Assembly: GCA_017744365.1 (NCBI GenBank)
Contig: JAGIBL010000003.1
Coordinates: forward strand, 1 to 64,000
Origin: Nocardioidaceae bacterium
Lineage (GTDB): Bacteria > Actinomycetota > Actinomycetes > Propionibacteriales > Nocardioidaceae
Length of the DNA: 64,000 nt
Reading direction: 5' to 3'
Under the pieces are notes generated by a model. It was not told the origin of the DNA. It saw nothing but the letters and a program-made list of their open reading frames with translations, and ran no database searches. The position numbers and the translations under genes are program-made. Positions 1 through 48,724 of the stretch are shown here, in pieces (the stretch's first letter is position 1; each line of letters opens with the position of its first letter).

Positions 1-130
1 CCCCGTCGCACGCCGGGTTGCGGCAGAAGCCGCTCGTCTGCGGGAAGAACACGGTGCCGCAGGTGGTGCACCGCGAGGCCAGCAGCGCGGGCTCGTCCCC
101 GGTGGTGAACCAGCCCTCGGGCACCGTCAC
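1..130 (-). CDS. DUF35 / OB-fold zinc-ribbon protein, N-terminal part (cut by window edge)
   Basis: The reading frame starts at a GTG whose last bases form the GTGA overlap with the nitrilase stop codon, so it is the next gene of the same leftward operon. Only about 43 residues are visible. They hold a zinc ribbon: Cys21-x2-Cys24 and Cys36-x4-Cys41, in the context ASRCTTCGTVFFPQ that is typical of DUF35 (rubredoxin-like ribbon before an OB fold). DUF35 proteins act as partners of thiolase-fold enzymes or of MaoC hydratases in acyl-CoA degradation. A thiolase or aldolase gene just outside the window would fit, but this is inference. Confidence 0.75.
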   Translation of the reverse strand, partial: MTVPEGWFTTGDEPALLASRCTTCGTVFFPQTSGFCRNPACDG

Positions 131-1044
131 AGCTCGTGCTCCCGGGCCAGCTCGCCACGCAGCGCCCGGTAGGTCTCGTCCCGGCGGTCGCGCTGGAGCC
201 GGGCACCCGAGGTGTTCGCGTAGGCCGCCTCGATGCCGGCACGGACCTCGATGTCCGCCACCGCCAGGCCGACCTCACCGGTCGGGGTCGCGGCGACCAC
301 CCGGCCCATCGGGTCGAGGATCGCGCTGTCGCCCGGGAAGGTCGACTCACCGAACGAGCCCGCGTAGTTGGCCGAGACGACCCAGCGCGCGTTCTCCGCC
401 GCACGCACCCGGTCGAAGAGCCGGAAGTACTCGACCCACGCACTGCGGTCCCACGACTCCACCGGCGGACCGGCGCCCCAGGCCGAGGACGTGACCAGGA
501 TCTGCGCGCCGCGGAGCACCAGCTCGCGGGCCGCCTCGGGCCACATCTTGTCGTAGCAGATCATCAGGCCGATCCGGCCCAGAGGCGTGTCGAAGACCGG
601 CCAGTCGTCGCCGCGCGCCCAGGTGACGTGCTCGACCACACCCATGTGCACCTTGCGGTAGCGGCCGATGAAGCCATCGGGCCCGGTCAGCACGACGGTG
701 TTGTAGACGACGCCCGCGGACCCGGAGTGCTCGTGCAGCCCGTAGACCACGTGCAGCCCGCGCTCGCGAGCCCGCTCCGCGATGCGCACCACGCTCGGCC
801 CGTCCGGGACCGGCTCGGCCGCCGCGTACACGGCCGCCAGGTGGCGGGGGTCGAGACCCCCGCCACCACGCGGGTAGCCGTGCAGGCTCACCTCGGGGAA
901 GACCACCAGGTCCGCCCCGGCGTCGGCCGCCTCGTCGAGGTAGTCGAGGTGCCGTCGCAGGTTCTCGGCCAGGTCGTGGCTGCCCGGGTAGGAGCAGACC
1001 GCGACCCGCACCGCCGTCGACGTGGTGAGGCCGGCGACCGCCAT
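127..1044 (-). CDS. Nitrilase-superfamily carbon-nitrogen hydrolase
   Basis: The product is 305 aa and likely hydrolyses an amide, nitrile or N-carbamoyl bond. The catalytic triad of the family is visible: Glu51 (VVFPEVSLHG), Lys131 (YRKVHMG) and Cys163 (MICYDKMWPE). There is no signal peptide, so it is cytoplasmic. I chose the ATG that overlaps the stop of the upstream binding-protein gene (ATGA); the frame is open further upstream but only inside that gene. It sits between the solute-binding protein and DUF35 genes of the transporter operon, so its substrate is probably the imported compound. Amidase, nitrilase and carbamoylase activity cannot be told apart from sequence alone. Confidence 0.85.
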   Translation of the reverse strand: MAVAGLTTSTAVRVAVCSYPGSHDLAENLRRHLDYLDEAADAGADLVVFPEVSLHGYPRGGGGLDPRHLAAVYAAAEPVPDGPSVVRIAERARERGLHVVYGLHEHSGSAGVVYNTVVLTGPDGFIGRYRKVHMGVVEHVTWARGDDWPVFDTPLGRIGLMICYDKMWPEAARELVLRGAQILVTSSAWGAGPPVESWDRSAWVEYFRLFDRVRAAENARWVVSANYAGSFGESTFPGDSAILDPMGRVVAATPTGEVGLAVADIEVRAGIEAAYANTSGARLQRDRRDETYRALRGELAREHEL

Positions 1045-2222
1045 CAGTCGGCGCTGTAGGGGTAGTCGTACGGGCCCAGCGGCTTCAGCCGGCACAGGCC
1101 GACCTCCTCGTCTGGGAACCCGGCGTGGTCCGAGGCGCTGAAGCCGTAGGTGTAGGTCGGGGAGGTGTAGGAGAAGTCCGTCATGCCCTCGAGCGCCGCC
1201 CGCATCTTGTCGGGGTCGACCGACTTGCTGGTCTCGATGGCCGCCTTCACCAGGCCGAGGTCGTCGTTGAAGATGATCGCCGTCGGCGTCGACGGGGTGA
1301 CCCCGGTCTTGTCGCTGACCGCCTTGAGCACGGCCTCGGTCCCGGCGTCCGGCGAGGCGCCCTGGGCCAGCGGCACGTTGCAGTTGGCGAACGCGCTGCC
1401 CGACAGGTTGCCCAGGCTGTCGTAGCCGACGAAGTAGGCCACCGCGGTGGTGAAGATCTGCGGCGTCCAGCCGATGGTGCGCAGGCCGTCGTACACGTGG
1501 TCGAGCCCGGCCGTGGAGAGCACCGCGAGCGCGTCGGCGCCGTCGGACTTGAGCTGGCGCAGCTGCGAGGTCACGTCCACCGCGCTGGCGGCGTAGGTGA
1601 CCTTCTTGGTCACCGCGAGGTCGGCCTCCTCGGCCGCGGTCCCGAGGAACTTCGCGATGTTGTCGCCGTACGGGAGGCCGTCGCTGATGATCCCGAGCTT
1701 CTTCGACCCCCGGCTCTGGGCGGCGGAGACCAGGTTCTTCATGGTCTGCTCGTCGCTCGGGTAGGTGGTGAACATGTACGGGTACTTCGACGGGTCCGCG
1801 TAGGCGGTGTTGCTGTCCAGCGAGACGATCGGCACCTTCGACTTCATCAGCACCGGGATCGTCTGGCCGCTCACCGCGGAGGTGCCGGCGTAGACCACGG
1901 CGGCGACGCCCTGGTCGACCAGCTTCTTGGCACCGGAGACGGCGACGGCCGGATCGCCCTGGTCGTTGACGGCGAGGAACTTCACCTTGCGACCGGCGAT
2001 GCCGCCCGCCGCGTTGAGACGCCCGACCAGGACGTCGAACGCCGCCTTCTGGGCCCCGCCGATCGCGGCCGACGGACCGCTGAGGGTGAACAGGGCACCG
2101 ATCTTGATCTCCCCCTTCGGCAGCCCCTCGCTCCCCGACTTGTCGCTGGAGCCGCAGGCGGCGAGACCTCCCACTGCCGTCGAGGCCGCGACCGCGGCGA
2201 CGACAACCTTGAGCTTCTTCAT
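1044..2222 (-). CDS. Branched-chain-amino-acid-type ABC transporter solute-binding lipoprotein
   Basis: The product is 392 aa. It starts with a lipoprotein signal (MKKLKVVVAAVAASTAVGG, then lipobox LAAC with Cys about residue 23), followed by a periplasmic-binding type I fold of the LivJ/Peripla_BP_6 kind (GEIKIGALFTLSGP near the mature N-terminus). It would be anchored outside the membrane and deliver ligand to the LivH/LivMG/LivF system encoded just upstream. Although the family is named for amino acids, actinobacterial members also bind aromatic acids, amides and steroid-like acids. The CoA-pathway neighbours favour an organic acid or amide. The longer open frame upstream of the chosen ATG overlaps the cyclase gene and lacks a signal peptide. 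Confidence 0.88.
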   Translation of the reverse strand: MKKLKVVVAAVAASTAVGGLAACGSSDKSGSEGLPKGEIKIGALFTLSGPSAAIGGAQKAAFDVLVGRLNAAGGIAGRKVKFLAVNDQGDPAVAVSGAKKLVDQGVAAVVYAGTSAVSGQTIPVLMKSKVPIVSLDSNTAYADPSKYPYMFTTYPSDEQTMKNLVSAAQSRGSKKLGIISDGLPYGDNIAKFLGTAAEEADLAVTKKVTYAASAVDVTSQLRQLKSDGADALAVLSTAGLDHVYDGLRTIGWTPQIFTTAVAYFVGYDSLGNLSGSAFANCNVPLAQGASPDAGTEAVLKAVSDKTGVTPSTPTAIIFNDDLGLVKAAIETSKSVDPDKMRAALEGMTDFSYTSPTYTYGFSASDHAGFPDEEVGLCRLKPLGPYDYPYSAD

Positions 2223-2284
2223 GGATGTGTCCCTTTCGATGTACGACGGCTGGACGCCGCCCGGGGTGGGTGAGAACGAGTGGG

Positions 2285-3265
2285 TTAGAAGGTGGCGATC
2301 GGGTTCACCGGGCTGCCGGACCCGCCGACCAGGCGGAGCGGGCTGACCGTGAGCAGGAACTCCCAGCGACCGAGCTCGGCGCAGCGCCGCGCCAGCTCCT
2401 CGAGGTCGCAGTTGTCGATCAGGCAGAGGCCGAGGGCCGAGATGCCCACCGCGTGCAGGGGAAAGCGCACTTCGTCGTACCCGGACGGGATCGCGTCCTG
2501 GCTGACGTCGGCGCCCACGACGGCGGTGTCGTGGTCGTGGAAGACGGGGAGGCAGGAAGCCTGCCAGCCGGGCTGGCCGGCCGCCTCGACGTCGTCGGCA
2601 CCCCGCTCCCGGCGCGCCCGCGCCGCCCCGGTGCGCAGCAGGACCGCGTCCCCCGGGCCGAGCTCGACGTGCTGCTCGCGCAGGATCTCGCGGAGCTCCT
2701 CGGCGCCGACGCTCTCGCCGGGCCCGAGCCAGTCGACCCCGCGATGACGCGCGGCGTCGACGAGGACGCCGCGGGTGGTGATGCCGTGGCGCAGTCGGTG
2801 CACCGAGTTCGCAGTGGCGCCGTCCGCCGCGGTCACCAGCTCGGCCGGGCGGTCGTTGTACATCCGCGCGTCCCAGAAGATGTGCGCCAGCCCGTCGAGG
2901 TGGGTCTGGGAGTAGCCGTGGAACTGCAGCCCCACCCACTCGTGCGCGGAGGCCTGCCGCTCGCCCGGGCGCATGTAGTCGGAGTACACCCGGTTGCCGT
3001 CGCAGAGCCCCTGCCCGGTCTGCAGGTACATCCGCAGCGGCGGCGGGCTGTGCGGGTCGGCGCGGTCGCGCGGGTCGATGTCCCAGCCGCACGAGACCGA
3101 CTCGCCGAGCCGCACCAGCCCGGCCGCCCGGACGCGTACGTCGGGAGTGATGTGGTTGATCGTGCCCAGCTCGTCGTCGGTGCCCCAGCGGCCCCAGTTC
3201 GAGAGGGACTCGAAGTAGCCGAGCACCTCGGCCTCGGCGGGGTCGGTCCGGCCGGCCGCGGTCAT
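2285..3265 (-). CDS. Cyclase-family (Cyclase_2, kynurenine-formamidase-like) metal-dependent hydrolase
   Basis: The product is 326 aa. The metal site of the cyclase/KynB family is visible as HGYSQTHLDGLAHIFWD, around residue 120 (the H-x4-T-H-x-D-x2-H pattern). The C-terminal half carries FHDHDTAVVGAD and the family's GISALGLCLIDN stretch. Family members hydrolyse N-formyl bonds, cyclic amides, lactones or isatin. The start ATG overlaps the stop of the livF-like gene (ATGA), and 62 bases separate this gene from the binding protein. Together with the nitrilase gene it suggests that the imported compound carries a hydrolysable amide, lactam or lactone. A precise substrate cannot be read. Confidence 0.8.
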   Translation of the reverse strand: MTAAGRTDPAEAEVLGYFESLSNWGRWGTDDELGTINHITPDVRVRAAGLVRLGESVSCGWDIDPRDRADPHSPPPLRMYLQTGQGLCDGNRVYSDYMRPGERQASAHEWVGLQFHGYSQTHLDGLAHIFWDARMYNDRPAELVTAADGATANSVHRLRHGITTRGVLVDAARHRGVDWLGPGESVGAEELREILREQHVELGPGDAVLLRTGAARARRERGADDVEAAGQPGWQASCLPVFHDHDTAVVGADVSQDAIPSGYDEVRFPLHAVGISALGLCLIDNCDLEELARRCAELGRWEFLLTVSPLRLVGGSGSPVNPIATF

Positions 3266-3993
3266 CGGGCTCCTCCGTGGATCGTCTCGGTGAGCTCGCC
3301 GCTGACCAGCAGCTCCTCGGACCGGCCGGCCACGACCACCCGGCCGTTGTCGACCAGCAGGCAGCGGTCGGACTGGCGCAGCGCGATGTCGAGGTTCTGC
3401 TCGACGACCACGACCGCGGTGCCGGACTCGCGCAGCGTCCGCAGGGCCGCGTAGATCTCCGCGATCACGACCTGGGCCAGGCCCGCGGAGGGCTCGTCGA
3501 CCAGCAGCACCCGCGGCGATGCCATCAGCGCCTGGCCGAGCGCGACCATCTGCTGCTGGCCGCCGGACAGCGCGGCGGCCGGCCGGTCCGCGAAGTCGGC
3601 GAGGATCGGGAACAGCGCGTGCACCCGCGCCAGGCTCTCCTCCAGGCTGCGGGTCCTGCTGCGCCGCCACGGGAAGAACCCGAGCATCAGGTTCTCCGCC
3701 ACCGTCAGGCCGCCGAAGACACGATGGCCCTCCGGGACCAGGGCGAGCCCGCGTCGGGCCATCGTGTCGGCCGGCGCGCGGGAGACGTCCGCGCCGTCGA
3801 GGAGGACCTGGCCGCTGTTCGACCCGGCCCGGACACCGGCGATCGCCTTGAGCAGGGTGGTCTTGCCGACCCCGTTGCGGCCGACGACCGCGAGCGCCTC
3901 GCCGGGCGCGACCTCGAGGTCGATGTCGCGGACCACGGTCATCCGGCCGTAGCCGGCACTGAGGCCGCGAACCTGGAGAACGGCTGCGCTCAT
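3262..3993 (-). CDS. livF: LivF-type ABC transporter ATPase
   Basis: The product is 243 aa, a usual LivF length. It shows Walker A GRNGVGKTT near residue 37, an intact signature LSGGQQQMVALGQAL and Walker B VLLVDEPSAGL, followed by the switch region VVVVEQN of the Liv subgroup (Glu-Gln-Asn in place of the usual His). It pairs with the ATPase half of the LivMG fusion to drive uptake on the cytoplasmic face. Start and stop overlap the neighbouring genes by four bases on both sides, so it is translated as part of the operon. Confidence 0.92.
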   Translation of the reverse strand: MSAAVLQVRGLSAGYGRMTVVRDIDLEVAPGEALAVVGRNGVGKTTLLKAIAGVRAGSNSGQVLLDGADVSRAPADTMARRGLALVPEGHRVFGGLTVAENLMLGFFPWRRSRTRSLEESLARVHALFPILADFADRPAAALSGGQQQMVALGQALMASPRVLLVDEPSAGLAQVVIAEIYAALRTLRESGTAVVVVEQNLDIALRQSDRCLLVDNGRVVVAGRSEELLVSGELTETIHGGAR

Positions 3994-5807
3994 GCCATCG
4001 CTCCCAGGAAGGAGCCGCGCACGCGCTCGTCCGAGCGGACCTCGTCGGCCGGGCCCGAGGCCAGGCAGCGGCCCTGGTGCAGGACGGTGACGTCGGTCGC
4101 GCACCCGAAGACGAAGGCGAGGTTGTGCTCGATCAGCAGCACGCCCACGCCGGCGGCGGTGACGCCGTCGATGACCTCGCGCAGCTGCTCGAGCTCGGCC
4201 TCGGACAGGCCGGCGGCCGGCTCGTCGAGCATCAGCGTGGCCGGCGCGACGGCCAGGGCGCGCGCGATCTCCAGCGTCCGTCGTACGCCGTGCGACTGCT
4301 TGTCCGCGAGCTGGTCGGCACGGTCGGCCAGGCCCACCGCGTCCAGGCACTCGAGCGCGCGCTCCCGCGCCGCCCGGTCCGCGCGCACGCCGCCGGGCAG
4401 GCGCAGCACCGAGCTCGCCGCGCTGCACGGGTGCACCTGCGAGGTCGCGCAGACCACGTTGTCGAGCAGGCTGAGGCCTTCGACCAGCTTGGGGGTCTGG
4501 AAGGTCCGGGCGAGCCCGGTGCGCGCGACCACGTGCGCGGGCAGGCCGTCCACCCGGCGCTGGTCGTGCCAGATCTCACCGGCGTCGAGCGCGTAGTAGC
4601 CGGAGATCAGGTTGAGCAGGGTGGTCTTGCCCGACCCGTTCGACCCGATCAGCCCGTGCACGGTCCCGGGAGCCACGGCGAGGTCGACCCCCGCCACCGC
4701 CTGCACGCCGCCGAAGGCGCGGCTCGCTCCGAGCACCCGCAGCCCGGTCGTCGCCGCGGGAGCCGGGGTGAGCACGGCGCGAGCCCGGGCCACCGGGCTG
4801 GGCTGGTTCCCCGCGGCCCGACCGGCCGGGGCCGGCACGCCGATCTCGGCGGCGGTCCGGCGCAGCAGACCGCGCCAGTCCCGTCCCCCGGCCTCGAGCG
4901 CCTCCCCGACCACGCCCTTGGGCAGCCCGAGCGCGAAGACGATCAGCGCGATGCCGAAGTAGATCCCGGCGTGGGCCTGCAGGCCGCCGAGGAACTGCAT
5001 CAGGCAGAGCACCAGCAGGCTGCCGACCAGCGGTCCCGCCACTGTGCCGAGCCCGCCGATGACACAGGCGGCGACCAGGTAGATGGACAGGTTCGCGCTG
5101 GCGCTCTGCGGGCTCATGAACTGCTGGCTGTAGACGTAGAACGCACCGCCGAGCCCGGCGGGCAGGGCGCTGAGCACGAACGCCAGCAGCTTGGTCGAGT
5201 ACGGCCGCACGCCCAGGGAGGCGGGCAGCTCGTCGCCGCCGGCGATGAGCAGCAGCCGCCGGCCGAGCCGGGAGCGCAGCAGCAGCCAGGACAGCACGGT
5301 GACCGCGATCAGCACGCCGGTGGTGAGCTCGTAGAGCGGCACCCCGGTCCAGCGCGGGGTGAAGTCGAGGATCGAGACCAGCGAGATGCCGGTGGTCCCG
5401 CCGGTGACGTCCCACGAGCCCGCGATCACCGGCACGAGCAGCGCCAGGAACAGCGTCACCATCGCCAGGTAGAAGCCGCCGATCCGCAGCGCCGGGATGC
5501 CGATGACGGCGCCGCACAGGGCCGAGACGACCAGCGAGACCAGGCACATCAGCCCCAGGTCCGCGCTGTGGTGGTGCTCGACGAGGAGCGCCGCGGCGTA
5601 GCCGCCGACCGCGAAGATCGCCCCCGGCCCGAGCGAGAGCAGGCCGGCGTAACCGGTGACGATGTTGAGGCCGACGGCCACCATCGCCAGCGCCAGCACG
5701 TACTGCATCGAGTTGAGCAGGTAGGTGTCGCCGGGCGCCACCACCGGGACCAGGGCGAGCCCGATCCCGATGAGCGCGACCAGGCCGAGCTCGACGCGCG
5801 CGCTCAT
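3990..5807 (-). CDS. LivM permease fused to LivG ATPase (single-chain importer subunit)
   Basis: The product is 605 aa, with two proteins joined in one frame. Residues 1 to about 320 are a LivM-type permease with about ten hydrophobic segments (GLNIVTGYAGLLSLG near residue 45; GGLGTVAGPLVGSLL near 260). A Pro/Ala-rich linker at about 330-370 leads to a LivG ATPase with Walker A GSNGSGKTT near residue 390 and Walker B LMLDEPAAGL. The usual LSYGQ signature is altered to QSHGVRRTLEIARAL. The start ATG overlaps the livH stop (TGATG). LivM-LivG fusions occur in actinobacteria and proteobacteria. I found no stop or frameshift between the halves, so it is a true fusion. Confidence 0.9.
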   Translation of the reverse strand: MSARVELGLVALIGIGLALVPVVAPGDTYLLNSMQYVLALAMVAVGLNIVTGYAGLLSLGPGAIFAVGGYAAALLVEHHHSADLGLMCLVSLVVSALCGAVIGIPALRIGGFYLAMVTLFLALLVPVIAGSWDVTGGTTGISLVSILDFTPRWTGVPLYELTTGVLIAVTVLSWLLLRSRLGRRLLLIAGGDELPASLGVRPYSTKLLAFVLSALPAGLGGAFYVYSQQFMSPQSASANLSIYLVAACVIGGLGTVAGPLVGSLLVLCLMQFLGGLQAHAGIYFGIALIVFALGLPKGVVGEALEAGGRDWRGLLRRTAAEIGVPAPAGRAAGNQPSPVARARAVLTPAPAATTGLRVLGASRAFGGVQAVAGVDLAVAPGTVHGLIGSNGSGKTTLLNLISGYYALDAGEIWHDQRRVDGLPAHVVARTGLARTFQTPKLVEGLSLLDNVVCATSQVHPCSAASSVLRLPGGVRADRAARERALECLDAVGLADRADQLADKQSHGVRRTLEIARALAVAPATLMLDEPAAGLSEAELEQLREVIDGVTAAGVGVLLIEHNLAFVFGCATDVTVLHQGRCLASGPADEVRSDERVRGSFLGAMA

Positions 5808-6691
5808 CAGACGGTCCTCGCCTTGGCGGAGCCGAAGATTCCGTGCGGGCGCACGGTCAGCACGACCAGCAGGAGCAGCAGCGCAGCGAGCAGCTCGTAG
5901 TGCGGGTCGGCGTACAGGTCGAAGACCTGCTCGGCCACGCCGAGGCTGAGCGCTCCGGCGAGCGCGCCCCGGGTGCTGCCGAAGCCGCCCACGGCGAGCG
6001 CCACGAAGCCCTTGATGCTGTAGCTGAGGCCGAGGCTCACGTCGGCGTAGACGACCGGTGCGATCACGAACGCCGCCAGGCCCGCGATGACCCCGCCGAG
6101 CAGGAAGGCGATCCGGCTCATCCGCACCGCCGAGATGCCGCGCAGCGCGGCCACCTCGCGGTCCTCGGCGGTGCCGCGGAGCGCGTGGCCGAGCCAGGTC
6201 CGCCGGTAGAACAGCTCGAGCAGCACGGTGACCAGGACGAGCGTGGCGAACGCGAGCAGCAGCTGCGGCGTGGTGGTCACCGACCCGATCCGGATGGCGT
6301 CCTTGGTCAGCGGGCTGGCCACCGGCAGCGGCGGCCGGTTGCCGTACAGGTTGGTGGCGATGGTCGCGATCACCAGGCCGAACGCCAGCGTCGAGATGAA
6401 CCACCCGATGTCGTCGACGCCGCGACCGAGGAAGGGCCGGACCGCGATCCGCTCCTCGACGAGGCTCAGCGCGCAGACCACGCCGATCACCACCAGGAGG
6501 GCCACGACCTGCGGCCAGTGCCGGATCTCGATCGCCCAGAACGAGACGAGCACGCCGACCATGACCAGGTCGCCCTGGGCCAGGTTGAAGACGCGGGTCG
6601 CGACGAAGACGACGGAGTAGGCCATCGCGATCAGGCCGTAGACCGCGCCGATGGCGATCCCGGTCACGATCGCGTTGAGAAGGAGGCTCAC
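5807..6691 (-). CDS. livH: LivH-type branched-chain ABC permease
   Basis: The product is 294 aa with about eight membrane segments and the LivH-type motifs NAIVTGIAIGAVYGLIAMAYSVVF at the N-terminus and ALRGTAEDREVAALRGI in the cytoplasmic coupling loop. I chose GTG at 6691, preceded by GGAG at a spacing of seven bases. The in-frame ATG at 6736 lies on the operator and upstream of the likely transcription start, so it cannot be used. This is the first gene of the leftward operon livH, livMG, livF, cyclase, binding protein, nitrilase, DUF35. It should be controlled by the divergent TetR through the palindrome at 6722-6735. Confidence 0.9.
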   Translation of the reverse strand: MSLLLNAIVTGIAIGAVYGLIAMAYSVVFVATRVFNLAQGDLVMVGVLVSFWAIEIRHWPQVVALLVVIGVVCALSLVEERIAVRPFLGRGVDDIGWFISTLAFGLVIATIATNLYGNRPPLPVASPLTKDAIRIGSVTTTPQLLLAFATLVLVTVLLELFYRRTWLGHALRGTAEDREVAALRGISAVRMSRIAFLLGGVIAGLAAFVIAPVVYADVSLGLSYSIKGFVALAVGGFGSTRGALAGALSLGVAEQVFDLYADPHYELLAALLLLLVVLTVRPHGIFGSAKARTV

Positions 6692-6721: not shown

Positions 6722-6735
6722 TGAACAAGCGTTCA
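6722..6735. promoter_or_regulatory. TetR operator candidate, copy 1 (livH promoter)
   Basis: TGAACAAGCGTTCA is an inverted repeat TGAAC-N4-GTTCA. The identical 14-mer recurs at 11894-11907 between the divergent racemase-like and CoA-transferase genes. It overlaps the predicted livH start point. Confidence 0.7.
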
Positions 6736-6739
6736 TACA

Positions 6740-6767
6740 ATAATCTCGGGCGGGGGCCGGCCGTCAA
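6740..6767 (-). promoter_or_regulatory. Candidate promoter of the livH operon
   Basis: On the minus strand TTGACG (6767-6762), a 16-nt spacer and GATTAT (6745-6740) form a fair sigma-70-like promoter. The predicted start falls in or next to the palindrome TGAACAAGCGTTCA at 6722-6735, so a bound repressor would block initiation. Visual prediction only. Confidence 0.5.
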
Positions 6768-6786
6768 GGGATTCGGCCGAGGTTTA

Positions 6787-6804
6787 TGAACGAATGTTCG
6801 TTCA
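6787..6804. promoter_or_regulatory. TetR operator candidate, autoregulatory site
   Basis: TGAACGAATGTTCGTTCA has perfect 8-bp arms (TGAACGAA and TTCGTTCA) around a 2-nt centre. It shares the TGAAC/GTTCA ends with the sites at 6722 and 11894. It lies 29 bases before the tetR start codon, where it could repress tetR itself. Confidence 0.65.
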
Positions 6805-6832
6805 CAAGCCTCCGAGCGTCTAGGATCAGCGC

Positions 6833-7435
6833 GTGCCACGCCGTAGCAGCACCTCCCCGGTGTCCTCCCGAGACGCGATCCTGACCGTCGCCGTGGAGCT
6901 CTTCGCCGAGCGCGGCTACCACGCGACCTCGATGCGCGAGGTGGCGCAGCGGGTCGGCGTGGTGCCCGCCGCGCTCTACAACCACTTCGACGGCAAGGAC
7001 GCGATCTTCGTCGAGCTCGGGACGCGGTACTTCGATGCGATGTACCCGGCCCTGGAGGCGGCACGCCATGCCGAGGGCGATGCGGCGGACCGGCTCGCGG
7101 CGATGGTCGCGGCCTCGGTCAACACCGCCGCCGGGCTCCGCGCCGAGCACATGATGCTCACCGACGAGTGGCGCACCATCCGGCGCAGCGAGGCGCTCTC
7201 GGTGCTCGCCGCCCGCCGGCGCGCGTGCATCGACCTGTGGCACGAGGTCCTCGCCGAGGGTGCCGTCGACGGCAGCCTGCGCACCGACGTCGACGACTCC
7301 TCGATCATCTGGCTGCTCTTCGCGGCGATCACCTCGCTCGTCGACTCCGGCTACTGGTCCGACATCGCGGTGAAGCCGAGCCCGCCGCTCGACGACGTGT
7401 GCTCGGTCATCCTCGACGGCGTACGACGGAGCTGA
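6833..7435 (+). CDS. TetR-family repressor, likely local regulator of the catabolic genes
   Basis: The product is 200 aa. The N-terminal helix-turn-helix is clear (ILTVAVELFAERGYHATSMREVAQRVGVVPAALYNHF, about residues 15-50), followed by a variable ligand-binding domain of the kind seen in TetR regulators of acyl-CoA degradation (KstR2/FadR-like). The start is GTG at 6833 with little room for a leader, so the mRNA may be leaderless. The gene is divergent from livH and ends 12 bases from the convergent acyl-CoA dehydrogenase gene. The palindromes at 6722, 6787 and 11894 are its probable operators. The inducer is likely a CoA ester of the pathway; that part is inference. Confidence 0.88.
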   Translation: MPRRSSTSPVSSRDAILTVAVELFAERGYHATSMREVAQRVGVVPAALYNHFDGKDAIFVELGTRYFDAMYPALEAARHAEGDAADRLAAMVAASVNTAAGLRAEHMMLTDEWRTIRRSEALSVLAARRRACIDLWHEVLAEGAVDGSLRTDVDDSSIIWLLFAAITSLVDSGYWSDIAVKPSPPLDDVCSVILDGVRRS

Positions 7436-7447
7436 CCGCCAGGAGCC

Positions 7448-8653
7448 TCAGAAGCTGCGCGGCAGCCCGAGCCGCCGGCGGCTGATGATGTTGCGCTGCA
7501 CCTGCGAGGTCCCGCCGCCGATGGTGTCGATGACCGTGTAGCGGTACGTCGACTCCGCCCGCCCGCGCATCGGCGCCGAGCCGGTGCCGACCCTCAGCTG
7601 CGTGCCCGGCCCGCCCAGGTCCATCGAGGCGTCCGCGAGCCGCTGGGAGAACTGGGTCGCGTAGAGCTTGTACTCCGAGGCCTCCGTGGTCGGCGGCGCA
7701 CCGCCGTCGCGCTCGCTGCGCATGGAGGCGTCCAGCACCCGCAGGCCCAGCAGCCGGGCGACCTCGGCCTCGGTGACCAGGCGGGCCAGCCGGCGCCGGG
7801 TGCCGGAGTCCTCGCGCACCGGCACGCCGTCGACGGTCGCGGTGCGCACGTGCTCGACCAGCGTCTCCAGGCGCTCGTCGATCGGCCCGAAGGTGAACAT
7901 GCTGAACCGCTCGAGGTCCAGGGCCTGGGAGATGTACTGGAAGCCCTTGTCGACCTCGCCGACCACGTAGTCGTCGGAGACCCAGACGTCGTCGAGGTAG
8001 ACCTCGTTGGTCCGCTCGGCGCCCATCGGCGCCCCGCCCATCGTCCAGATCGGCTTCACGGTGATGCCGGGATGGTCCATCGGCACCAGGAACAGGGTGA
8101 TGCCGTGGTGCTTGCTGTCCGGGTTGGTCCGCGCGCCGACCCAGTACCAGTCGGCGAAGTGCGCCGAGGTCGTCCAGACCTTCTGCCCGTCCAGCCGCCA
8201 GCCGTCCCCGTCGCGGACCGCGCGCAGCCGCATCGAGGCCGCGTCGGACCCGGCCTCGGGCTCGGAGTAGCCGACCGCGAACTCGATCTCCGCGGCCAGG
8301 ATCTTCGGCAGGAACTCGCGCTTGAGGCGCTCCGAGCCGTGGGCCAGGATCGTCTTCCCGATGATCCCGACGCCCTTGCCGGTCTGCGGTCCCCCGCGGT
8401 GGGCCAGGGCCTCGTTGAGCACGTACTCGTAGACGCCGGGCCGCTCCTGCCCGCCCCACTCGCGCGGCCAGGTCATGCCGAGCCAGCCGCGCTCGGCGAG
8501 CTTCTTCAGGAACGCACGCCGCGCCGGGGTGTCGACGATCTGCGCCATGTTCTCCCGGGTGACGTCGAAGACGTCGGGGTCGTGGTGCGCGTCGAGGAAC
8601 TCCTCGACCTCGCGCGCGAAGGCGACGATCTCGTCGTCCAGCTCGAAGTCCAT
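7448..8653 (-). CDS. Acyl-CoA dehydrogenase (larger subunit of a likely heteromeric pair)
   Basis: The product is 401 aa with the full acyl-CoA dehydrogenase fold: the flavin-site strands FAVGYSEPEAGSDAASMRLRA (middle domain) and WTTSAHFADWYWVGARTN, and the C-terminal TIGGGTSQVQRNIISRRRLGLPR. The residue before GTSQ is Gly rather than the Glu used by medium-chain enzymes. The only obvious alternative base is in ALDLERFSM, the position used by isovaleryl-type and ChsE-type enzymes. It lies 21 bases downstream of a second, dissimilar dehydrogenase, the arrangement of the alpha2-beta2 FadE28/FadE29 type. It probably dehydrogenates a branched or bulky acyl-CoA. Confidence 0.88.
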   Translation of the reverse strand: MDFELDDEIVAFAREVEEFLDAHHDPDVFDVTRENMAQIVDTPARRAFLKKLAERGWLGMTWPREWGGQERPGVYEYVLNEALAHRGGPQTGKGVGIIGKTILAHGSERLKREFLPKILAAEIEFAVGYSEPEAGSDAASMRLRAVRDGDGWRLDGQKVWTTSAHFADWYWVGARTNPDSKHHGITLFLVPMDHPGITVKPIWTMGGAPMGAERTNEVYLDDVWVSDDYVVGEVDKGFQYISQALDLERFSMFTFGPIDERLETLVEHVRTATVDGVPVREDSGTRRRLARLVTEAEVARLLGLRVLDASMRSERDGGAPPTTEASEYKLYATQFSQRLADASMDLGGPGTQLRVGTGSAPMRGRAESTYRYTVIDTIGGGTSQVQRNIISRRRLGLPRSF

Positions 8654-8674
8654 GGGTCTCGCTCTCTCTCGGTC

Positions 8675-9796
8675 TCAGGCGGTCAGCAGGTCGTCGGCGA
8701 TGCGGTCCTCCAGCTCCGGCGGCGACCACCAGGAGAGCTCGAGCTGCTTGGCGCGGCGGAAGTAGAGCTGGATGTCGAACTCCAGGGTGAACCCGACGCC
8801 CCCGAAGATCTGCTCGCCGGAGCGGGTCACGTGCCGGAAGGTCTCGCAGGCGTAGAGCTTCGCCATCGCCGCCAGCCGGCCGGCCTCGGGCGCACCGCGG
8901 TCGAGCGCATCGGCGGCGCGGTAGGCGATCAGCTCCGCCCCGGAGACCTCGGTCGCGCAGTCGGCCAGCTCGTGCGCGAGCGCCTGGAACGCCCCGAGCG
9001 GCTTTCCGAACTGCTCACGCGTCCGGGCGTAGTCGACGGTCAGCTCCAGCGCCCGCTCGGCACCGCCGACCGCGTACGCCGCGAGCGGGGCCAGCGCCTC
9101 GCCCAGCGTCGCCGACCAGTGCGACCAGCCCTCACCGGGGCGGCCGACGAGATCGTCGTCGGCCACGTGCACGTCGTCGAGCCGGACGTCGTACTGGGTG
9201 TCCGAGGCGAGCGAGAAGGCCTGCTCCAGGTCGACGCCGGGCCCGGCCGGGTCGACCAGCGCGATCGCGGTGCCGGCGTCGGTCCCGAAGAGCACCAGCA
9301 GGCGATCGGCGCTCGACGCGCACGGGACGTGCCGCTTGAGGCCGGAGAGCCGGTAGCCACCCGGAACCTTCTCCCCGCGCAGGGCGATCCCGGTGGCACG
9401 CGCACTGCCGCCGGGTTCCAGCCAGGCCGGGACGACCAGCCGGCTGCCGTCGGCGATGCCGGGCAGCCAGGCCCGCTGCACGTCCGTGGTCGCCGTACGG
9501 GCGAGGAGCCGGGCAGCGAGCACCGAGCTCGCGAACCACGGCCCCGGCGCCAGCGCCCGGCCGAGCTCGGCGTGCACCACCGCCATCTCGGTCCAGGTCA
9601 GCGCGCTGCCACCGAACCGCTCCGGGACCGCCATGCCGAGGATCCCGGCCTCGGCGAGCGCCTTGCGCAGCTCGGGGTCGTAGCCGACCGGGTCGTCCTC
9701 CAGGGCACGCACCCGGTCCAGCGGCGCGGCGTCGGCACAGATCCGCCGCACCATGTCCCGTACGGCGACCTGGTCGGCGTTCAGCTGGGTCTCCAT
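8675..9796 (-). CDS. Acyl-CoA dehydrogenase (smaller subunit of a likely heteromeric pair)
   Basis: The product is 373 aa. The N-terminal helical domain (NADQVAVRDMVRRICAD), a poorly conserved middle domain, and the C-terminal ARTREQFGKPLGAFQALAHELAD with QIFGGVGFTLEFDIQLYFRRAKQLE identify an acyl-CoA dehydrogenase. FTLEFDIQLYFRRAK matches subunits of the ChsE2/FadE29-like kind rather than the usual GGxGY..E..vER pattern. The middle domain lacks the typical SEPxAGSD motif, as in partner subunits. ATG at 9796 was chosen; GTG at 9799 in the same frame is equally possible. It is co-transcribed with the MaoC genes upstream, with a 12-base gap. Confidence 0.85.
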   Translation of the reverse strand: METQLNADQVAVRDMVRRICADAAPLDRVRALEDDPVGYDPELRKALAEAGILGMAVPERFGGSALTWTEMAVVHAELGRALAPGPWFASSVLAARLLARTATTDVQRAWLPGIADGSRLVVPAWLEPGGSARATGIALRGEKVPGGYRLSGLKRHVPCASSADRLLVLFGTDAGTAIALVDPAGPGVDLEQAFSLASDTQYDVRLDDVHVADDDLVGRPGEGWSHWSATLGEALAPLAAYAVGGAERALELTVDYARTREQFGKPLGAFQALAHELADCATEVSGAELIAYRAADALDRGAPEAGRLAAMAKLYACETFRHVTRSGEQIFGGVGFTLEFDIQLYFRRAKQLELSWWSPPELEDRIADDLLTA

Positions 9797-9808
9797 CACT
9801 CTCTCCTC

Positions 9809-10276
9809 TCAGGGCTTCCAGTCGTCACCGGTCAGCGACCAGGGGTTGTCCCCCTCGGCGGCCGGGATCGCGATGCGCGCGGTGCCGGCGGTGCTGAGCT
9901 CGCCGGCGGCACGGACCTCGATCTCGACCTCGACCCAGGCCACGCCGGCCTGGCCGGTGTCCACCCCGGTGACGGTCGCTCCGATCGTCATCTCCTCGCC
10001 GGGGAAGACCGGCCTGCTCATCCGGAACCGGAGCCGGCCGATCCGCGCCAGCGGGCCGAACCAGTCGGTCAGGTAGCGCTCGATCCAGAGCGCCTGGTGC
10101 GGGGTGTTCAGGAAGATGTCCGGCACGCCGTTGCGCTCGCGCGCGAAGCCGGGGTCGTGGTGCATCGGGCGCCAGTCCCGGCTGGCCAGGGCGCCGAGCA
10201 CCACCGAGGTGACGGTGACCTCGTGGCGCAGCGGCGGCAGCGTGCTGCCGACCTCGAGCAGTCCGCGCGCCGCCAT
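9809..10276 (-). CDS. MaoC-type hot-dog enoyl-CoA hydratase, catalytic subunit
   Basis: The product is 155 aa, a single hot-dog domain. The MaoC catalytic pair is present: Asp34 and His39 in RDWRPMHHDP, which activate water for hydration of a 2-enoyl-CoA. The preceding gene encodes a MaoC-like chain that lacks these residues, and the two overlap by one base (TGATG). In the ChsH1-ChsH2 hydratase of steroid side-chain degradation a catalytic short MaoC chain pairs with a non-catalytic one in just this way. Expected to act on the product of the adjacent dehydrogenases in the cytoplasm. Confidence 0.85.
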   Translation of the reverse strand: MAARGLLEVGSTLPPLRHEVTVTSVVLGALASRDWRPMHHDPGFARERNGVPDIFLNTPHQALWIERYLTDWFGPLARIGRLRFRMSRPVFPGEEMTIGATVTGVDTGQAGVAWVEVEIEVRAAGELSTAGTARIAIPAAEGDNPWSLTGDDWKP

Positions 10277-10788
10277 CAGGCAGCCCTCCGGTAGCCGAAG
10301 CCGGCGATGACCTCGCGGCAGCAGAGCAGGTCGTCCTGGTTGCGGTACTCGACGGCGATGTTCCAGAAGCGACCGCGGCCGACCGCGGTCGTCTTCTCCT
10401 CGCTCACCGAGAGCAGCACCTGCGTGCTGGTCAGCCGGTCGCCGACGCGCACCGGCTCGTGGAAGACCAGCTCGTCGGAGCTCATGATCGCCTCCGGGAA
10501 GCCGAGCGCCTCCTTGAGGTCGAAGTGCACCTGCAGCGGGAGCGACGGCTCGCTCGGGTCCGGCGTCCAGTGGAACGGGCGCGTCCACGCCGAGACCATC
10601 GCCTGCGGCGCGACCGGGCTGCCGGCCAGCTCGGTGGCGAGCTGCTCGTCCCAGTAGAGCGGGTTGCCGTTCTCGACCGACGCGCAGGCGTTCCTGATGG
10701 TGGTCACGTCGACGACGAGCGGCCCGGTCTGCCGGTACTGCCGGACGCCGACCATGCGCGCGACCTCCTCGGGCAGATCGGTCGTCAT
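10276..10788 (-). CDS. MaoC-like hot-dog protein, probably non-catalytic hydratase partner
   Basis: The product is 170 aa, an N-terminal-type MaoC / FAS1-like dehydratase hot-dog domain (FHEPVRVGDRLTSTQVLLSV; GRGRFWNIAVEYRNQDDLLC). At the position of the catalytic Asp-x4-His the sequence reads ENGNPLYWDE, so Glu and Tyr replace the active pair. This is how the ChsH2 N-terminal domain is built, which supplies substrate-pocket residues to ChsH1. Unlike ChsH2 it has no C-terminal DUF35; the separate DUF35 gene at the left edge may fill that role. The start ATG overlaps the stop of the racemase-like gene (ATGA). Confidence 0.82.
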   Translation of the reverse strand: MTTDLPEEVARMVGVRQYRQTGPLVVDVTTIRNACASVENGNPLYWDEQLATELAGSPVAPQAMVSAWTRPFHWTPDPSEPSLPLQVHFDLKEALGFPEAIMSSDELVFHEPVRVGDRLTSTQVLLSVSEEKTTAVGRGRFWNIAVEYRNQDDLLCCREVIAGFGYRRAA

Positions 10789-11849
10789 CCGCGCACCCCG
10801 TCGGCGAGCAGGTCCTCGGCGGCGACGCGCTCCGGTGGCGGCAGCGGGCCGGTGAGCTCGTGCCCGGCGAGACCGGACCCGGCCGGGTCGCCGATCTCGT
10901 CGAGCGTCAGCACCGGCGCGACGCAGGTGTCCGCGGCCGCGAGCAGCTCGACCCACGCGTCGCGGGTCCGGGTGCGGAAGACCTCCGCGAGGTCGCGGCG
11001 GATGTCCTCCTGACTGGCGCGGTCGAGCTGGTGGTCGGCCCAGCGGTCCAGGCCGAGCGCCCGGCACAGGTTGCGCCAGAAGCGGTCCTCGATGACGCCG
11101 ACCGCGACCTCGCCCCCGTCCGCGGTCGGGTAGGTGGCGTAGCAGGCGAAGGCGCCGGTGGTCAGGTCGAGCAGGCCGGTGTCGCCCGACCCGTCCTCCG
11201 CCGCGGCGTGGGCCTCGAGCCGCAGCGCCATCAGCTGGGCGACCCCCGCGACGACCGCGACGTCCAGCCAGGCTCCGCGGCCGGTGCGGGCCCGGGCCAG
11301 CAGCGCGGCCTGGATCGCGATGACCGCCTGCATCCCGCCGGCCGCGGCGTCGGCGATCGTCGCCGGCGGAACCGCGGGCGAGCCCGGGACGCGAGCCCCG
11401 AGGTAGCCGCCGGCGGCGAGGTAGTTCAGGTCGTGCCCGGCCCACTCGCGCCGCGGCCCGTCCTGCCCGTAGCCGGTGGTCGAGCACAGCACGATCCCGG
11501 GGTTGGCCTCGGAGAGCACGTCGTAGCCGAGCCCGAGCCGGGCGAGCACGCCGGGCCGGAACGACTCCAGCACGACGTCGGCGTCGCGGACCAGGGCCAG
11601 GAAGACCCGGGCACCGCGCTCGTCGCGCAGGTCGAGGTCCAGGTACCGCCAGCCACGACCGCCCCGGTAGGCGTACGGCGCCGGCCCCGGGTCGCCGGGC
11701 CGGCCGATCTTGACCACCGAGGCGCCGTAGTCGGCCAGCCAGCGCGCGGCGCGGGTAGCCGGGCCCACCCGGGACAGGTCGAGCACGGTGATCCCATCGA
11801 GCAGCCCGCCCTCCGCCTCACCAAATGAACGCTTGGTTTTCTGGGTCAA
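10785..11849 (-). CDS. Alpha-methylacyl-CoA racemase-like protein (CoA-transferase family III fold)
   Basis: The product is 354 aa from the TTG at 11849. The fold is family III, but the key segments match alpha-methylacyl-CoA racemase: VGPATRAARWLADYGASVVKIGRPG at the N-terminus, WAGHDLNYLAAGG (His-Asp) and ATIADAAAGGMQAV (Asp), the His and Asp bases of the racemase. It would interconvert (2R)/(2S)-methylacyl-CoA before dehydrogenation. The open frame reaches back to ATGs at 11891/11894, but these lie in the operator and -10 region. TTG has GGGAG eight bases upstream and is the likelier start. A plain CoA-transferase remains possible. Confidence 0.75.
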   Translation of the reverse strand: MTQKTKRSFGEAEGGLLDGITVLDLSRVGPATRAARWLADYGASVVKIGRPGDPGPAPYAYRGGRGWRYLDLDLRDERGARVFLALVRDADVVLESFRPGVLARLGLGYDVLSEANPGIVLCSTTGYGQDGPRREWAGHDLNYLAAGGYLGARVPGSPAVPPATIADAAAGGMQAVIAIQAALLARARTGRGAWLDVAVVAGVAQLMALRLEAHAAAEDGSGDTGLLDLTTGAFACYATYPTADGGEVAVGVIEDRFWRNLCRALGLDRWADHQLDRASQEDIRRDLAEVFRTRTRDAWVELLAAADTCVAPVLTLDEIGDPAGSGLAGHELTGPLPPPERVAAEDLLADGVRG

Positions 11850-11889
11850 GACTCTTGCTCCCTCATGATCGGCGGGCGTACTCTCGGCC

Positions 11890-11918
11890 ATCATGAACAA
11901 GCGTTCACTTTGTGTCAA
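11890..11918 (-). promoter_or_regulatory. Candidate promoter of the racemase / MaoC / dehydrogenase operon
   Basis: On the minus strand TTGACA (11918-11913) and CATGAT (11895-11890) are separated by 17 nt, close to the sigma-70 consensus. The spacer contains the palindrome at 11894-11907, the ideal place for a repressor. Predicted transcription would start near 11883, downstream of the in-frame ATG codons. Confidence 0.55.
11894..11907. promoter_or_regulatory. TetR operator candidate, copy 2 (divergent racemase / CoA-transferase promoters)
   Basis: TGAACAAGCGTTCA is identical base for base to 6722-6735. It sits between the -35 and -10 of the leftward promoter and about 20 bases before the rightward CoA-transferase start, so one bound dimer could silence both directions. 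A weaker relative, TGAACGCTTGGTTT at 11826-11839, matches the reverse complement at 11 of 14 positions. Confidence 0.7.
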
Positions 11919-11927
11919 GGAGGTCCG

Positions 11928-13187
11928 ATGAGGTCGCCGGAGCCCGGACTGCTCGCCGGCCTGCGCGTCGTCGAGTGCACCCTGCTCGAGCCGGGCAGCG
12001 TCGGCATGATCCTGGGCGAGCTCGGGGCCGACGTGGTCAAGGTCGAGCCGCCTGGCGGCGACTACGTGCGCACCCTCGGCTGGCCGTTCGTCGACGGCGT
12101 CTCGATCCTGCACTGGCACGTGAACAAGGCCAAGCGCAGCGTGCAGGTGGACCTGCGCGACCCCGACGGCGTCGCCGTCTTCGAGGACCTGGTCCGCTCG
12201 GCCGACGTGGTCGTCGAGGGAATGCGACCCGGTGCGCTCGCCCGGCGCGGGCTCGGCTACGACCGCCTCCGCGCGCTCAACCCCCGGGTGGTGCTCTGCT
12301 CGATCTCCGGCTTCGGGGCCACCGGGCCCTACCGCGACCTGCCCTCGCACGGCGTCGGCTTCGACGCCTGGGCCGGGGTCGCGCCCCCGGCGTACCGCGA
12401 GGACGGCACTCCCTACCTGCCCGACCACGCCACCATCGGCACCAAGGTCGGCGCGGTCTGGGCGGCGCTCGCGATCAGCGCCGCCGTCCTGCGCGCCCGC
12501 ACGTCCGGGCAGGGCTGCCACCTCGACATCGCGCAGAGCGACGCGGCGGCGTACGCGAACTGGCTGCCGATCGAGGGCACCCAGGCCTACCGGCGACCCG
12601 AGCCCGAGGTCACCGGCAACCCCGCGGACGGCGGCGCCCGGCGCCCGGCCGGGCCCGGCGGGATGGAGCCGGCCGTGCGCTACCAGTACTACGCGACCGA
12701 GGACGGCCACGTGCTGTTCATGGCGTCGGAGCAGGAGTTCTGGCGCAACTTCTGCGAGGGCGTCGGGCGCCTCGACCTGTACGACGCCCACCCCGGCCGC
12801 CGGTACGGCGACCACGCGACCGGCGAGGTCGCGCTGCGCCACGAGATCGCCGCGATCTTCGCGACCCGGACGACCGCCGCCTGGACCGAGTTCGGCCTGG
12901 AGCGCAACTGCCCGATCGTCCCGGTCAACGACGCCGCCACCATCGCCGCGGACCCGCAGTTCGCCGACCGGCTGCCCTGGCTGCCCGCGCGCGAGTACCA
13001 CGCCGACCTGCTGCCGATCCCGGTCAACGTCGTCGGCACCGAGCGCGTCCGGCCCCGGGTCGCGCCCCAGCCCGGCGAGCACAGCGCCGAGATCCTCGGC
13101 GAGCTCGGCTACCCGACCGAGCGGATCGCCGCCCTGCTCGCGTCCGGGGCCGTCACCCGTCCCCCCCACTCCGAGGAGCAGCAGTGA
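11928..13187 (+). CDS. CoA-transferase family III (CaiB/BaiF type)
   Basis: The product is 419 aa. The N-terminus (LLAGLRVVECTLLEPGSVGMILGELGADVVKVEPPGGDYVR) and RRGLGYDRLRALNPRVVLCSISGFGATGPYRD are classic family III, and the acyl-bearing Asp fits in HGVGFDAWAG near residue 145. It would move CoA from a donor thioester to a free acid. The ATG is preceded by a near-perfect AAGGAGGT ribosome site. It is divergent from the racemase-like gene and shares its operator. It overlaps the acyl-CoA synthetase gene by GTGA, so activation of the substrate may be possible by two routes. Confidence 0.87.
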   Translation: MRSPEPGLLAGLRVVECTLLEPGSVGMILGELGADVVKVEPPGGDYVRTLGWPFVDGVSILHWHVNKAKRSVQVDLRDPDGVAVFEDLVRSADVVVEGMRPGALARRGLGYDRLRALNPRVVLCSISGFGATGPYRDLPSHGVGFDAWAGVAPPAYREDGTPYLPDHATIGTKVGAVWAALAISAAVLRARTSGQGCHLDIAQSDAAAYANWLPIEGTQAYRRPEPEVTGNPADGGARRPAGPGGMEPAVRYQYYATEDGHVLFMASEQEFWRNFCEGVGRLDLYDAHPGRRYGDHATGEVALRHEIAAIFATRTTAAWTEFGLERNCPIVPVNDAATIAADPQFADRLPWLPAREYHADLLPIPVNVVGTERVRPRVAPQPGEHSAEILGELGYPTERIAALLASGAVTRPPHSEEQQ

Positions 13188-15323
13188 GCACGAGCAAGCC
13201 CGTCCCCGATCTCGACCGGTTCTTCCGGCCCCGCGCGGTCGCCGTGGTCGGTGCCTCCGACACCGAGGGGCGGCCGACCACGATGAACTGGCGCCGGATC
13301 AAGGAGTGGGCGGAGCGGGTGCAGGCCACGGCCTACCCGGTGACGCCCAAGTACGAGACCGTCGACGGCCTGCGCGCCTACCCGCGGCTCGCGGACCTCC
13401 CCGAGCCGATCGACGTCGCGGTGCTGCTGATCTCCGACGTGCTCGGCATCATCCCCGACGTGATCGAGGCCAGGATCCCGTTCGCGATCAGCTTCGCCGC
13501 CGGTTTCGCCGAGACCGGCGCGGACGGCGCCGCCCGGCAGCGCGAGCTGGAGCGGCTGCTCGACGGATCCGCGACCCGGCTGCTCGGGCCGAACACGAAC
13601 CTCAACGCCTTCGAGACCTTCCGCGACGACCTGCCCGGCAAGGCGATCGCACTGGTCACCCAGAGCGGGCACCAGGGCCGGCCCGTCTTCCAGGGCCAGG
13701 AGCTGGGGATCCGGTTCAGCCACTGGGCGCCGACCGGCAACGAGGCCGACCTGGAGTCGGCCGACTTCGTCCGCTACCTCGCCGGGCTCGAGGAGACCGG
13801 CGCCATCGCGGCCTACATCGAGGGCTTCAAGGACGGGCGGGCGTTCCTCGACGCCGCGCGCTACGCCGCCGGCAGAGGCGTCCCGGTCGTGGTCGTCAAG
13901 GTCGGGCGGACCGACATCGGCGCCTCCTGGGCGCAGTCGCACACCGGCCACCTGGCCGGCAGCGACACCGTCGTCTCGGCCGCCCTGCGCCAGGCCGGCG
14001 TGATCCGCGTCGACGGCCTCGACGAGCTGCTCGACACCGCGGCCATGCTCGCCCGCTGCGCACCGCCGACGGCTCCGGGCGTCTGCGTCTACTCGATCTC
14101 GGGCGGCACCAGCGCGCACATGGCGGACATGCTCTCGGCCGCCGGTCTCGACCTGCCCGAGCTGAGCGAGCAGACCCAGGCGCAGCTCCACGAGTGGATC
14201 GCGCCGTACCTGCGGGTGACCAACCCGGTCGACAGCGGCGGCCACCCGAGCGGCGACTGGCGCGGGCCCAAGATCCTGGACGCGCTGCTGGCCGACCCCG
14301 CGGTCGGCGTGCTGGTGGTGCCGATCACCGGGGCGTTCCCGCCGATGAGCGACGTCTTCGTCAACGACCTCGTCGAGGCCGCAGCCCGCACCAGCAAGCC
14401 GGTCTGCGTGGTCTGGGGCTCGCCGACCGGGCTCGAGGAGGCCTACCGCACGGTGCTGCTCGGGTCGGGCATCCCCGTCTTCCGCACGTTCCGCAACTGC
14501 GTGACCGCGGTCGCGGCGTACCTCGGCCACCACGAGTTCCGGGCAAGGCTGCTCGCCTCCGGCCCGCTCCCGGAGCCCACGGCCGACCCCGTGCCGCTGC
14601 CGTCCTCCGGGGGCACCCTGACCGAGGCGGACTCCAAGGCCTTCGTCGCCCGGTACGGCGTCCGGGTCACCCGCGACGTGCTCTGCGCCGACGCCGGCCA
14701 GGCCGTCGAGGCGGCCTCCGCGCTGGGCTTCCCGGTGGTGCTCAAGGTCGCCAGCCCGACCATCGTGCACAAGTCCGACCACGGGCTGGTGCTGACCGGG
14801 TGCGCGAGCGCCGCGGAGGTCCACGCCGGGTACGAGCTGCTGATGACCCGCGCCGCCGCGGTGCCGGATGCCCAGGTCGACGGCGTACTCGTCTGCGAGC
14901 AGGTGGACGGCGGCGTGGAGACGGTCGTCGGGCTGGTCGAGGACCCGGTGTTCGGGCCGACGGTCATGTTCGGGATCGGCGGCACCGCGGTCGAGATCTA
15001 CCGCGACGTCGCCTTCCGGGTGGCGCCGTTCAGCCGGGACGAGGCGCTCGCGATGATCCGCGAGGTGCGCGGTTTCCCCTTGCTGGCCGGGGCACGTGGC
15101 ACCGCTCCGGCCGACCTGGAGGCCCTCGCCGACGTGGTCATGGCCGTGCAGCAGATCGGCCTGGACCAGGCGGGGAGCGGGATCGAGCTGGACCTCAACC
15201 CGGTGGCCGCGCGGCCCGACGGGGCGGTCACGCTCGACGCCGTCCTCACCGTGAGCGGCCCGGCGGCCGTGAACTCTACGAACGCTACCTGCGGGTCACC
15301 TGGAAATTTGGCACGATCAAGTC

Positions 15324-15331
<8 letters not shown>
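13184..15331 (+). CDS. Acyl-CoA synthetase, ADP/NDP-forming (fused alpha-beta)
   Basis: The product is 715 aa. The alpha part (about 1-460) has the CoA-binding Rossmann fold (RAVAVVGASDTEG) and the phosphorylatable His253 in VGRTDIGASWAQSHTGHLAG. The beta part (about 490-700) is an ATP-grasp domain (ALGFPVVLKVASPTIVHKSDHGLVL). The enzyme makes an acyl-CoA from acid, CoA and ATP with ADP plus phosphate as products. GTG at 13184 overlaps the CoA-transferase stop, and the gene runs eight bases into the malic enzyme gene. Probable role: activation of the imported or hydrolysed acid; the acid itself is not known. Confidence 0.88.
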
Positions 15332-25138: not shown

Positions 25139-25154
25139 GTAGAACGCGTTCTAC
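25139..25154. promoter_or_regulatory. Perfect 16-bp palindrome upstream of korA (KstR-like site)
   Basis: GTAGAACGCGTTCTAC is perfectly self-complementary. Its inner 14 bases, TAGAACGCGTTCTA, fit the published KstR consensus TnnAACnnGTTnnA at every fixed position. A candidate -10 TACGAT follows at 25164-25169, so a bound TetR-type regulator would cover the -35 region of korAB. Confidence 0.6.
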
Positions 25155-48692: not shown

Positions 48693-48724
48693 CTAGTTTC
48701 TGAACTAGTATTCACGTATGTGAA
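48693..48724. promoter_or_regulatory. Tandem palindromes downstream of the promoter (candidate operator pair)
   Basis: CTAGTT-N4-AACTAG (48693-48708) and TTCAC-N4-GTGAA (48711-48724) are both perfect inverted repeats, 18 bp apart from start to start. They cover the predicted transcript start and leader. No regulator gene is adjacent; the binding protein is unknown. Confidence 0.55.

Follow-up and report, generated by a model that had tools for sequence, protein, structure and literature searches.

Results

Organization of the locus

The window (the whole 64-kb stretch of DNA analysed, 71% G+C) carries between positions 127 and 15331 a catabolic cluster that comprises one regulator gene, tetR, and three enzyme and transport units in which the genes overlap or nearly abut. 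No regulator gene other than tetR (6833-7435, forward strand) was seen in the cluster; the tetR product, the proposed repressor, has a TetR_N and a TetR_C_24 domain, and the TetR_N helix-turn-helix is recognized well above threshold (PF00440, 68.2 bits against a cut-off of 24). Unit 1 (127-6691, reverse strand) encodes livH, a fused livM-livG, livF, a PF04199 cyclase, a substrate-binding protein and a carbon-nitrogen hydrolase, the fusion being a single open reading frame (3990-5807, reverse strand) with the permease domain followed by the ABC ATPase domain. Unit 2 (7448-11849, reverse strand) encodes a family III CoA-transferase with a likely TTG start at 11849, two MaoC-type hydratases and two acyl-CoA dehydrogenases, and unit 3 (11928-15331, forward strand) encodes a second family III CoA-transferase together with an NDP-forming acyl-CoA synthetase. 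What the preliminary description had called a racemase is instead a family III CoA-transferase (PF02515). tetR diverges from the livH operon and palindromes at 6722 and 6787 lie in their common intergenic region, which is the layout of a local repressor.

A near-unique palindrome at two intergenic regions

The sequence TGAACAAGCGTTCA is found at 6722-6735 and again, base for base, at 11894-11907, and these are its sole matches in the window at up to two mismatches, where shuffled sequence gives a mean of 0.12. In the whole genome (4,757,382 bases in 15 contigs) the exact 14-mer is likewise confined to these two positions, so that the identity claimed in the preliminary description is borne out and no scatter through unrelated coding regions was found genome-wide. 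Its designation as a 14-bp palindrome holds for the arms, TGAAC-N4-GTTCA, and not for the central AAGC, which is not self-complementary. The genome scan for TGAAC-N4-GTTCA that had been proposed returned one third exact copy, on another contig and within an unrelated small open reading frame (C8:596943). With up to one mismatch this motif occurs at 26 places in 4.76 Mb, or about one per 183 kb, as against 12 places for the reversed control; three of the 26 cluster within 5.2 kb here, for which a Poisson estimate is about 4e-6. The shorter AAC-N4-GTT occurs four times in the 64 kb, three of them being the sites at 6722, 6787 and 11894. The genome holds three relatives of TGAACAAGCGTTCA with two mismatches, one of which makes up the final codons of a gene that belongs to a ribosomal-protein operon; all three lie in open reading frames and were rejected as regulon members.

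Repetition of a 14-mer is by itself unremarkable in so G+C-rich a window, since 864 repeated 14-mers were counted there. However, only five of these, TGAACAAGCGTTCA included, have 5-bp palindromic arms, and TGAACAAGCGTTCA far exceeds the other four in A+T content; order-1 Markov copies of the two intergenic regions had a 14-mer in common in about 7.5e-5 of trials, which agrees with the earlier view that chance identity is unlikely. What does stand out is that palindromic structure, base composition and position come together in one repeat. No relevant paper came up in a literature search for the exact operator strings.

The related longer palindrome described before tetR, TGAACGAATGTTCGTTCA at 6787-6804, is real and unique in the genome at up to two mismatches, but it departs from the motif as written. 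It consists of the arms TGAACGAA and TTCGTTCA around a 2-bp centre, and its outer TGAAC and GTTCA are separated by N8, as opposed to N4 in the 14-mers. Given a fixed half-site spacing, a single dimer could presumably not use these outer arms as it would those of the 14-mers. Within the 18-mer, TGAAC-GAAT-GTTCG (6787-6800) and CGAAT-GTTC-GTTCA (6791-6804) nevertheless form two overlapping registers of the AAC-N4-GTT type, offset by 4 bp, and we take the 18-mer as candidate operator 2, that of tetR.

Placement relative to predicted promoters

Promoters were predicted by consensus, using a sigma-70-like scan over 5.4 kb. The scan gave just two, where 0.1 would be expected, and both touch the 14-mers. 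The predicted livH-operon promoter, TTGACG-N16-GATTAT (6740-6767, reverse strand, 9/12), ends 4 bp before the 14-mer at 6722-6735, candidate operator 1, which lies downstream of its -10 and thus covers the predicted start. The predicted unit 2 promoter, TTGACA-N17-CATGAT (11890-11918, reverse strand, 10/12), contains the 14-mer at 11894-11907, candidate operator 3, in its -35/-10 spacer, between the unit 3 start codon and the upstream region. For the rightward CoA-transferase of unit 3, whose start codon follows operator 3 at a distance of 21 bp, the scan gave no convincing consensus promoter. For tetR, the likely -10 read from the sequence is TAGGAT (6821-6826, forward strand), and the gene likely starts, leaderless, at the GTG codon at 6833 with the 18-mer farther upstream. 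A possible extra half-site, TGAACGCTTGGTTT, falls among the opening codons of the CoA-transferase gene of unit 2 (11826-11839); it matches at 11 of 14 positions, near background, ranks only eighth by weight matrix, and was left as a weak candidate for a fourth operator.

Three further features of the window were recorded. A perfect palindrome, TAGAACGCGTTCTA at 25140-25153, precedes a gene whose first residues resemble those of a 2-oxoacid:ferredoxin oxidoreductase subunit, and it fits the KstR-type consensus, TNNAACNNGTTNNA. At 48701-48724, TGAACTAGTATTCACGTATGTGAA lies just upstream of a predicted lipoprotein-type solute-binding protein gene (48742); it is one mismatch from TGAAC-N4-GTTCA, overlaps a TTCAC-N4-GTGAA palindrome, and may mark an additional member of the regulon or serve a different regulator. 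Between 58097 and 58280 there are short CGTCTCATCTGAAA-type repeat units in both orientations, 32 bp apart.

Conservation in other genomes

A related TetR (35-37% identical) and an orthologue of the second CoA-transferase (67-68%) are both present in six genomes that belong to a different genus of the family. There tetR diverges from an orthologue of the acyl-CoA synthetase (about 60%), which is followed by a different ABC transporter and then by the CoA-transferase; as two of these six loci hardly differ, they count as about five independent ones. The intergenic region between tetR and the synthetase gene carries an invariant ACTAACGATCGTTAGT, and each of the five genomes searched has a single copy of CTAACGATCGTTAG, which lies in this intergenic region every time. 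CTAACGATCGTTAG has the AAC-N4-GTT spacing and, when the promoters are aligned, falls on the left register of the 18-mer at 6787, with TAGGAT kept downstream before tetR. The outer bases differ, CTAAC in the other genus against TGAAC here.

A second conserved site, AGCAAATGCTTGGT, which is KstR2-like, precedes the synthetase gene in the same intergenic regions (L119-L124) and recurs elsewhere in those genomes, and the orthologous cluster may be under dual control in the other genus. The genome of the window has AGCAAGTGCTTGGT twice, 9 kb apart (G000:C7:987929 and 996748).

One genome of the same genus as the window (G087) has a homologous CoA-transferase/synthetase/MaoC cluster, in which neither operator was found; no TetR domain was detected among the proteins scanned, and the best TetR match, at 27%, lies on another contig. 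A genome contig search gave TetR homologues of only about 30-34%, mostly from Streptomyces, plasmid relatives were only 27-31% identical, and no close orthologue appeared in the phylum sample at E 1e-30. The motif was absent from all 78 of the 78 upstream regions of distant TetR homologues. With the acyl-CoA dehydrogenase as a cluster marker only matches of 46-52% in distant families were obtained; the CoA-transferase proved the useful marker, and an order-wide search added no genome to those already found.

Discussion

We propose that the three palindromes are very probably the operators of the TetR encoded at 6833-7435, which would act as a ligand-released, autoregulated local repressor of four transcription units, tetR and the three others. 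The preliminary description had drawn a single TetR regulon made up of the transporter and hydrolase genes, the beta-oxidation-like operon and the CoA-transferase/synthetase genes. This proposal is supported because the sites are near-unique in the genome, lie on predicted promoters, and keep their AAC-N4-GTT spacing next to a related TetR in another genus; the overlapping genes within each operon agree with it, as do the presence of tetR as sole regulator gene seen in the cluster and the lack of such sites in the same-genus cluster where no TetR was found. Against it speak the modest identity of the related TetR (35-37%), the different outer bases of the operator in that genus, the outer spacing of the 18-mer, which suits the model only when read as overlapping registers, and the absence of the motif upstream of more distant TetR homologues. 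We infer binding, repression and ligand from the sequence, and the promoter positions from consensus. The TetR dimer would recognize AAC-N4-GTT, with a preference for TGAAC-N4-GTTCA. In the ligand-free state it would block RNA polymerase by occupying three places: the region where transcription of the Liv-transporter operon is predicted to start, an upstream position at the tetR promoter, where the two overlapping registers might admit two dimers, and the -35/-10 spacer in the divergent promoters of the CoA-transferase genes. Binding of a ligand to the C-terminal domain, either the substrate itself or, with greater likelihood, a CoA thioester intermediate, would cause TetR to leave the DNA, whereupon the uptake, hydrolase, CoA-transfer/ligase and beta-oxidation-like genes would rise together. 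A CoA thioester or the free acid is the likely ligand given the chemistry of the cluster, with its CoA-transferases, NDP-forming ligase, acyl-CoA dehydrogenases and hydratases.

Since exact 14-mer repeats are so common in the window, the repeated palindrome might be taken for a coincidence or a non-regulatory repeat, yet its palindromic arms, intergenic placement, overlap with predicted promoters and spacing conserved across genera make this very unlikely. A less improbable alternative, though still one to which we give little weight, is that the 18-mer in front of tetR is the one site bound by the local TetR, with livH added by proximity, while the 14-mers serve a different regulator encoded elsewhere. 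The different outer spacing of the two kinds of site, N4 and N8, would fit such a division of labour, as would the resemblance of the 18-mer to the FadR box of Bacillus subtilis. However, the N4 spacing of the 14-mers is also that of the site before the related tetR, and a register of this kind is present inside the 18-mer; moreover, a remote regulator dedicated to TGAACAAGCGTTCA would control nothing but these two places, since the genome has no further copy. A few TetR-family proteins, such as FasR of mycobacteria, are activators, and this TetR might conceivably be one; but the operators overlap a predicted start region or a -35/-10 spacer, which is the geometry of repression, and activation at these sites is therefore hardly to be expected.

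The system we propose, a local TetR repressor acting on three palindromes, has several parallels. KstR2, a TetR-family regulator of mycobacteria and rhodococci, controls a small regulon of CoA-dependent catabolic genes through 14-bp operators, with the consensus AnCAAGnnCTTGnT and a CoA-thioester ligand. The cluster here would share the small CoA-dependent catabolic regulon and the 14-bp operator length, and KstR2 is among the closest solved sequences to this TetR (4w97, E 2.3e-14), although the query spans only part of KstR2 at low identity, and no steroid ring-degradation genes were identified in this cluster. We do not file this TetR as KstR2, since none of the curated equivalog models compared with it reaches its cut-off and these promoters lack the KstR2 operator, whose one match in the window with a single mismatch (6003) lies inside livH. 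The FadR box of B. subtilis, TGAATGAnTAnTCATTCA, is as long as the 18-mer before tetR and differs from it at three positions, whereas the 14-mers do not fit this box, and the NCBIfam FadR equivalog scores this TetR at 41.2 bits, below its cut-off of 200.

In its divergent, probably autoregulated arrangement the locus matches that of BkaR (Rv2506), a TetR repressor that controls its own gene and a divergent catabolic operon, with repeated palindromes in the promoter region that the two have in common; it differs in the operator core, which for BkaR is GTTA(N)T(N4)A(N)TAAC, and in the pathway, which for BkaR is branched-chain keto-acid metabolism (PMC3920632). Divergent TetR genes are a general pattern in mycobacteria, to which the layout here conforms, and QacR binds a 28-bp palindrome as a tetramer (PMC4482099). 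The two overlapping registers of the 18-mer could similarly take two dimers, although here the registers overlap more closely, with an offset of 4 bp, and the 14-mers are single sites.

A more speculative extension, which we hold only tentatively and think rather doubtful, is that two operator architectures exist by design, single 14-bp sites serving the catabolic promoters and, at tetR, an 18-bp site doubled by overlap for two cooperating dimers, and that this TetR belongs to a clade with its own AAC-N4-GTT operator class, tied to an uncharacterised CoA-transferase/NDP-forming synthetase pathway. If the two-architecture reading were true, the response threshold of the repressor gene would differ from that of its targets.

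As a control circuit, the arrangement is solid but ordinary, a further case of a familiar type. Its value is that separate transcription units can be read as a single predicted pathway, and that the operator together with its TetR would offer a cheap handle for the inducer, and hence the substrate, of an uncharacterised catabolic cluster.
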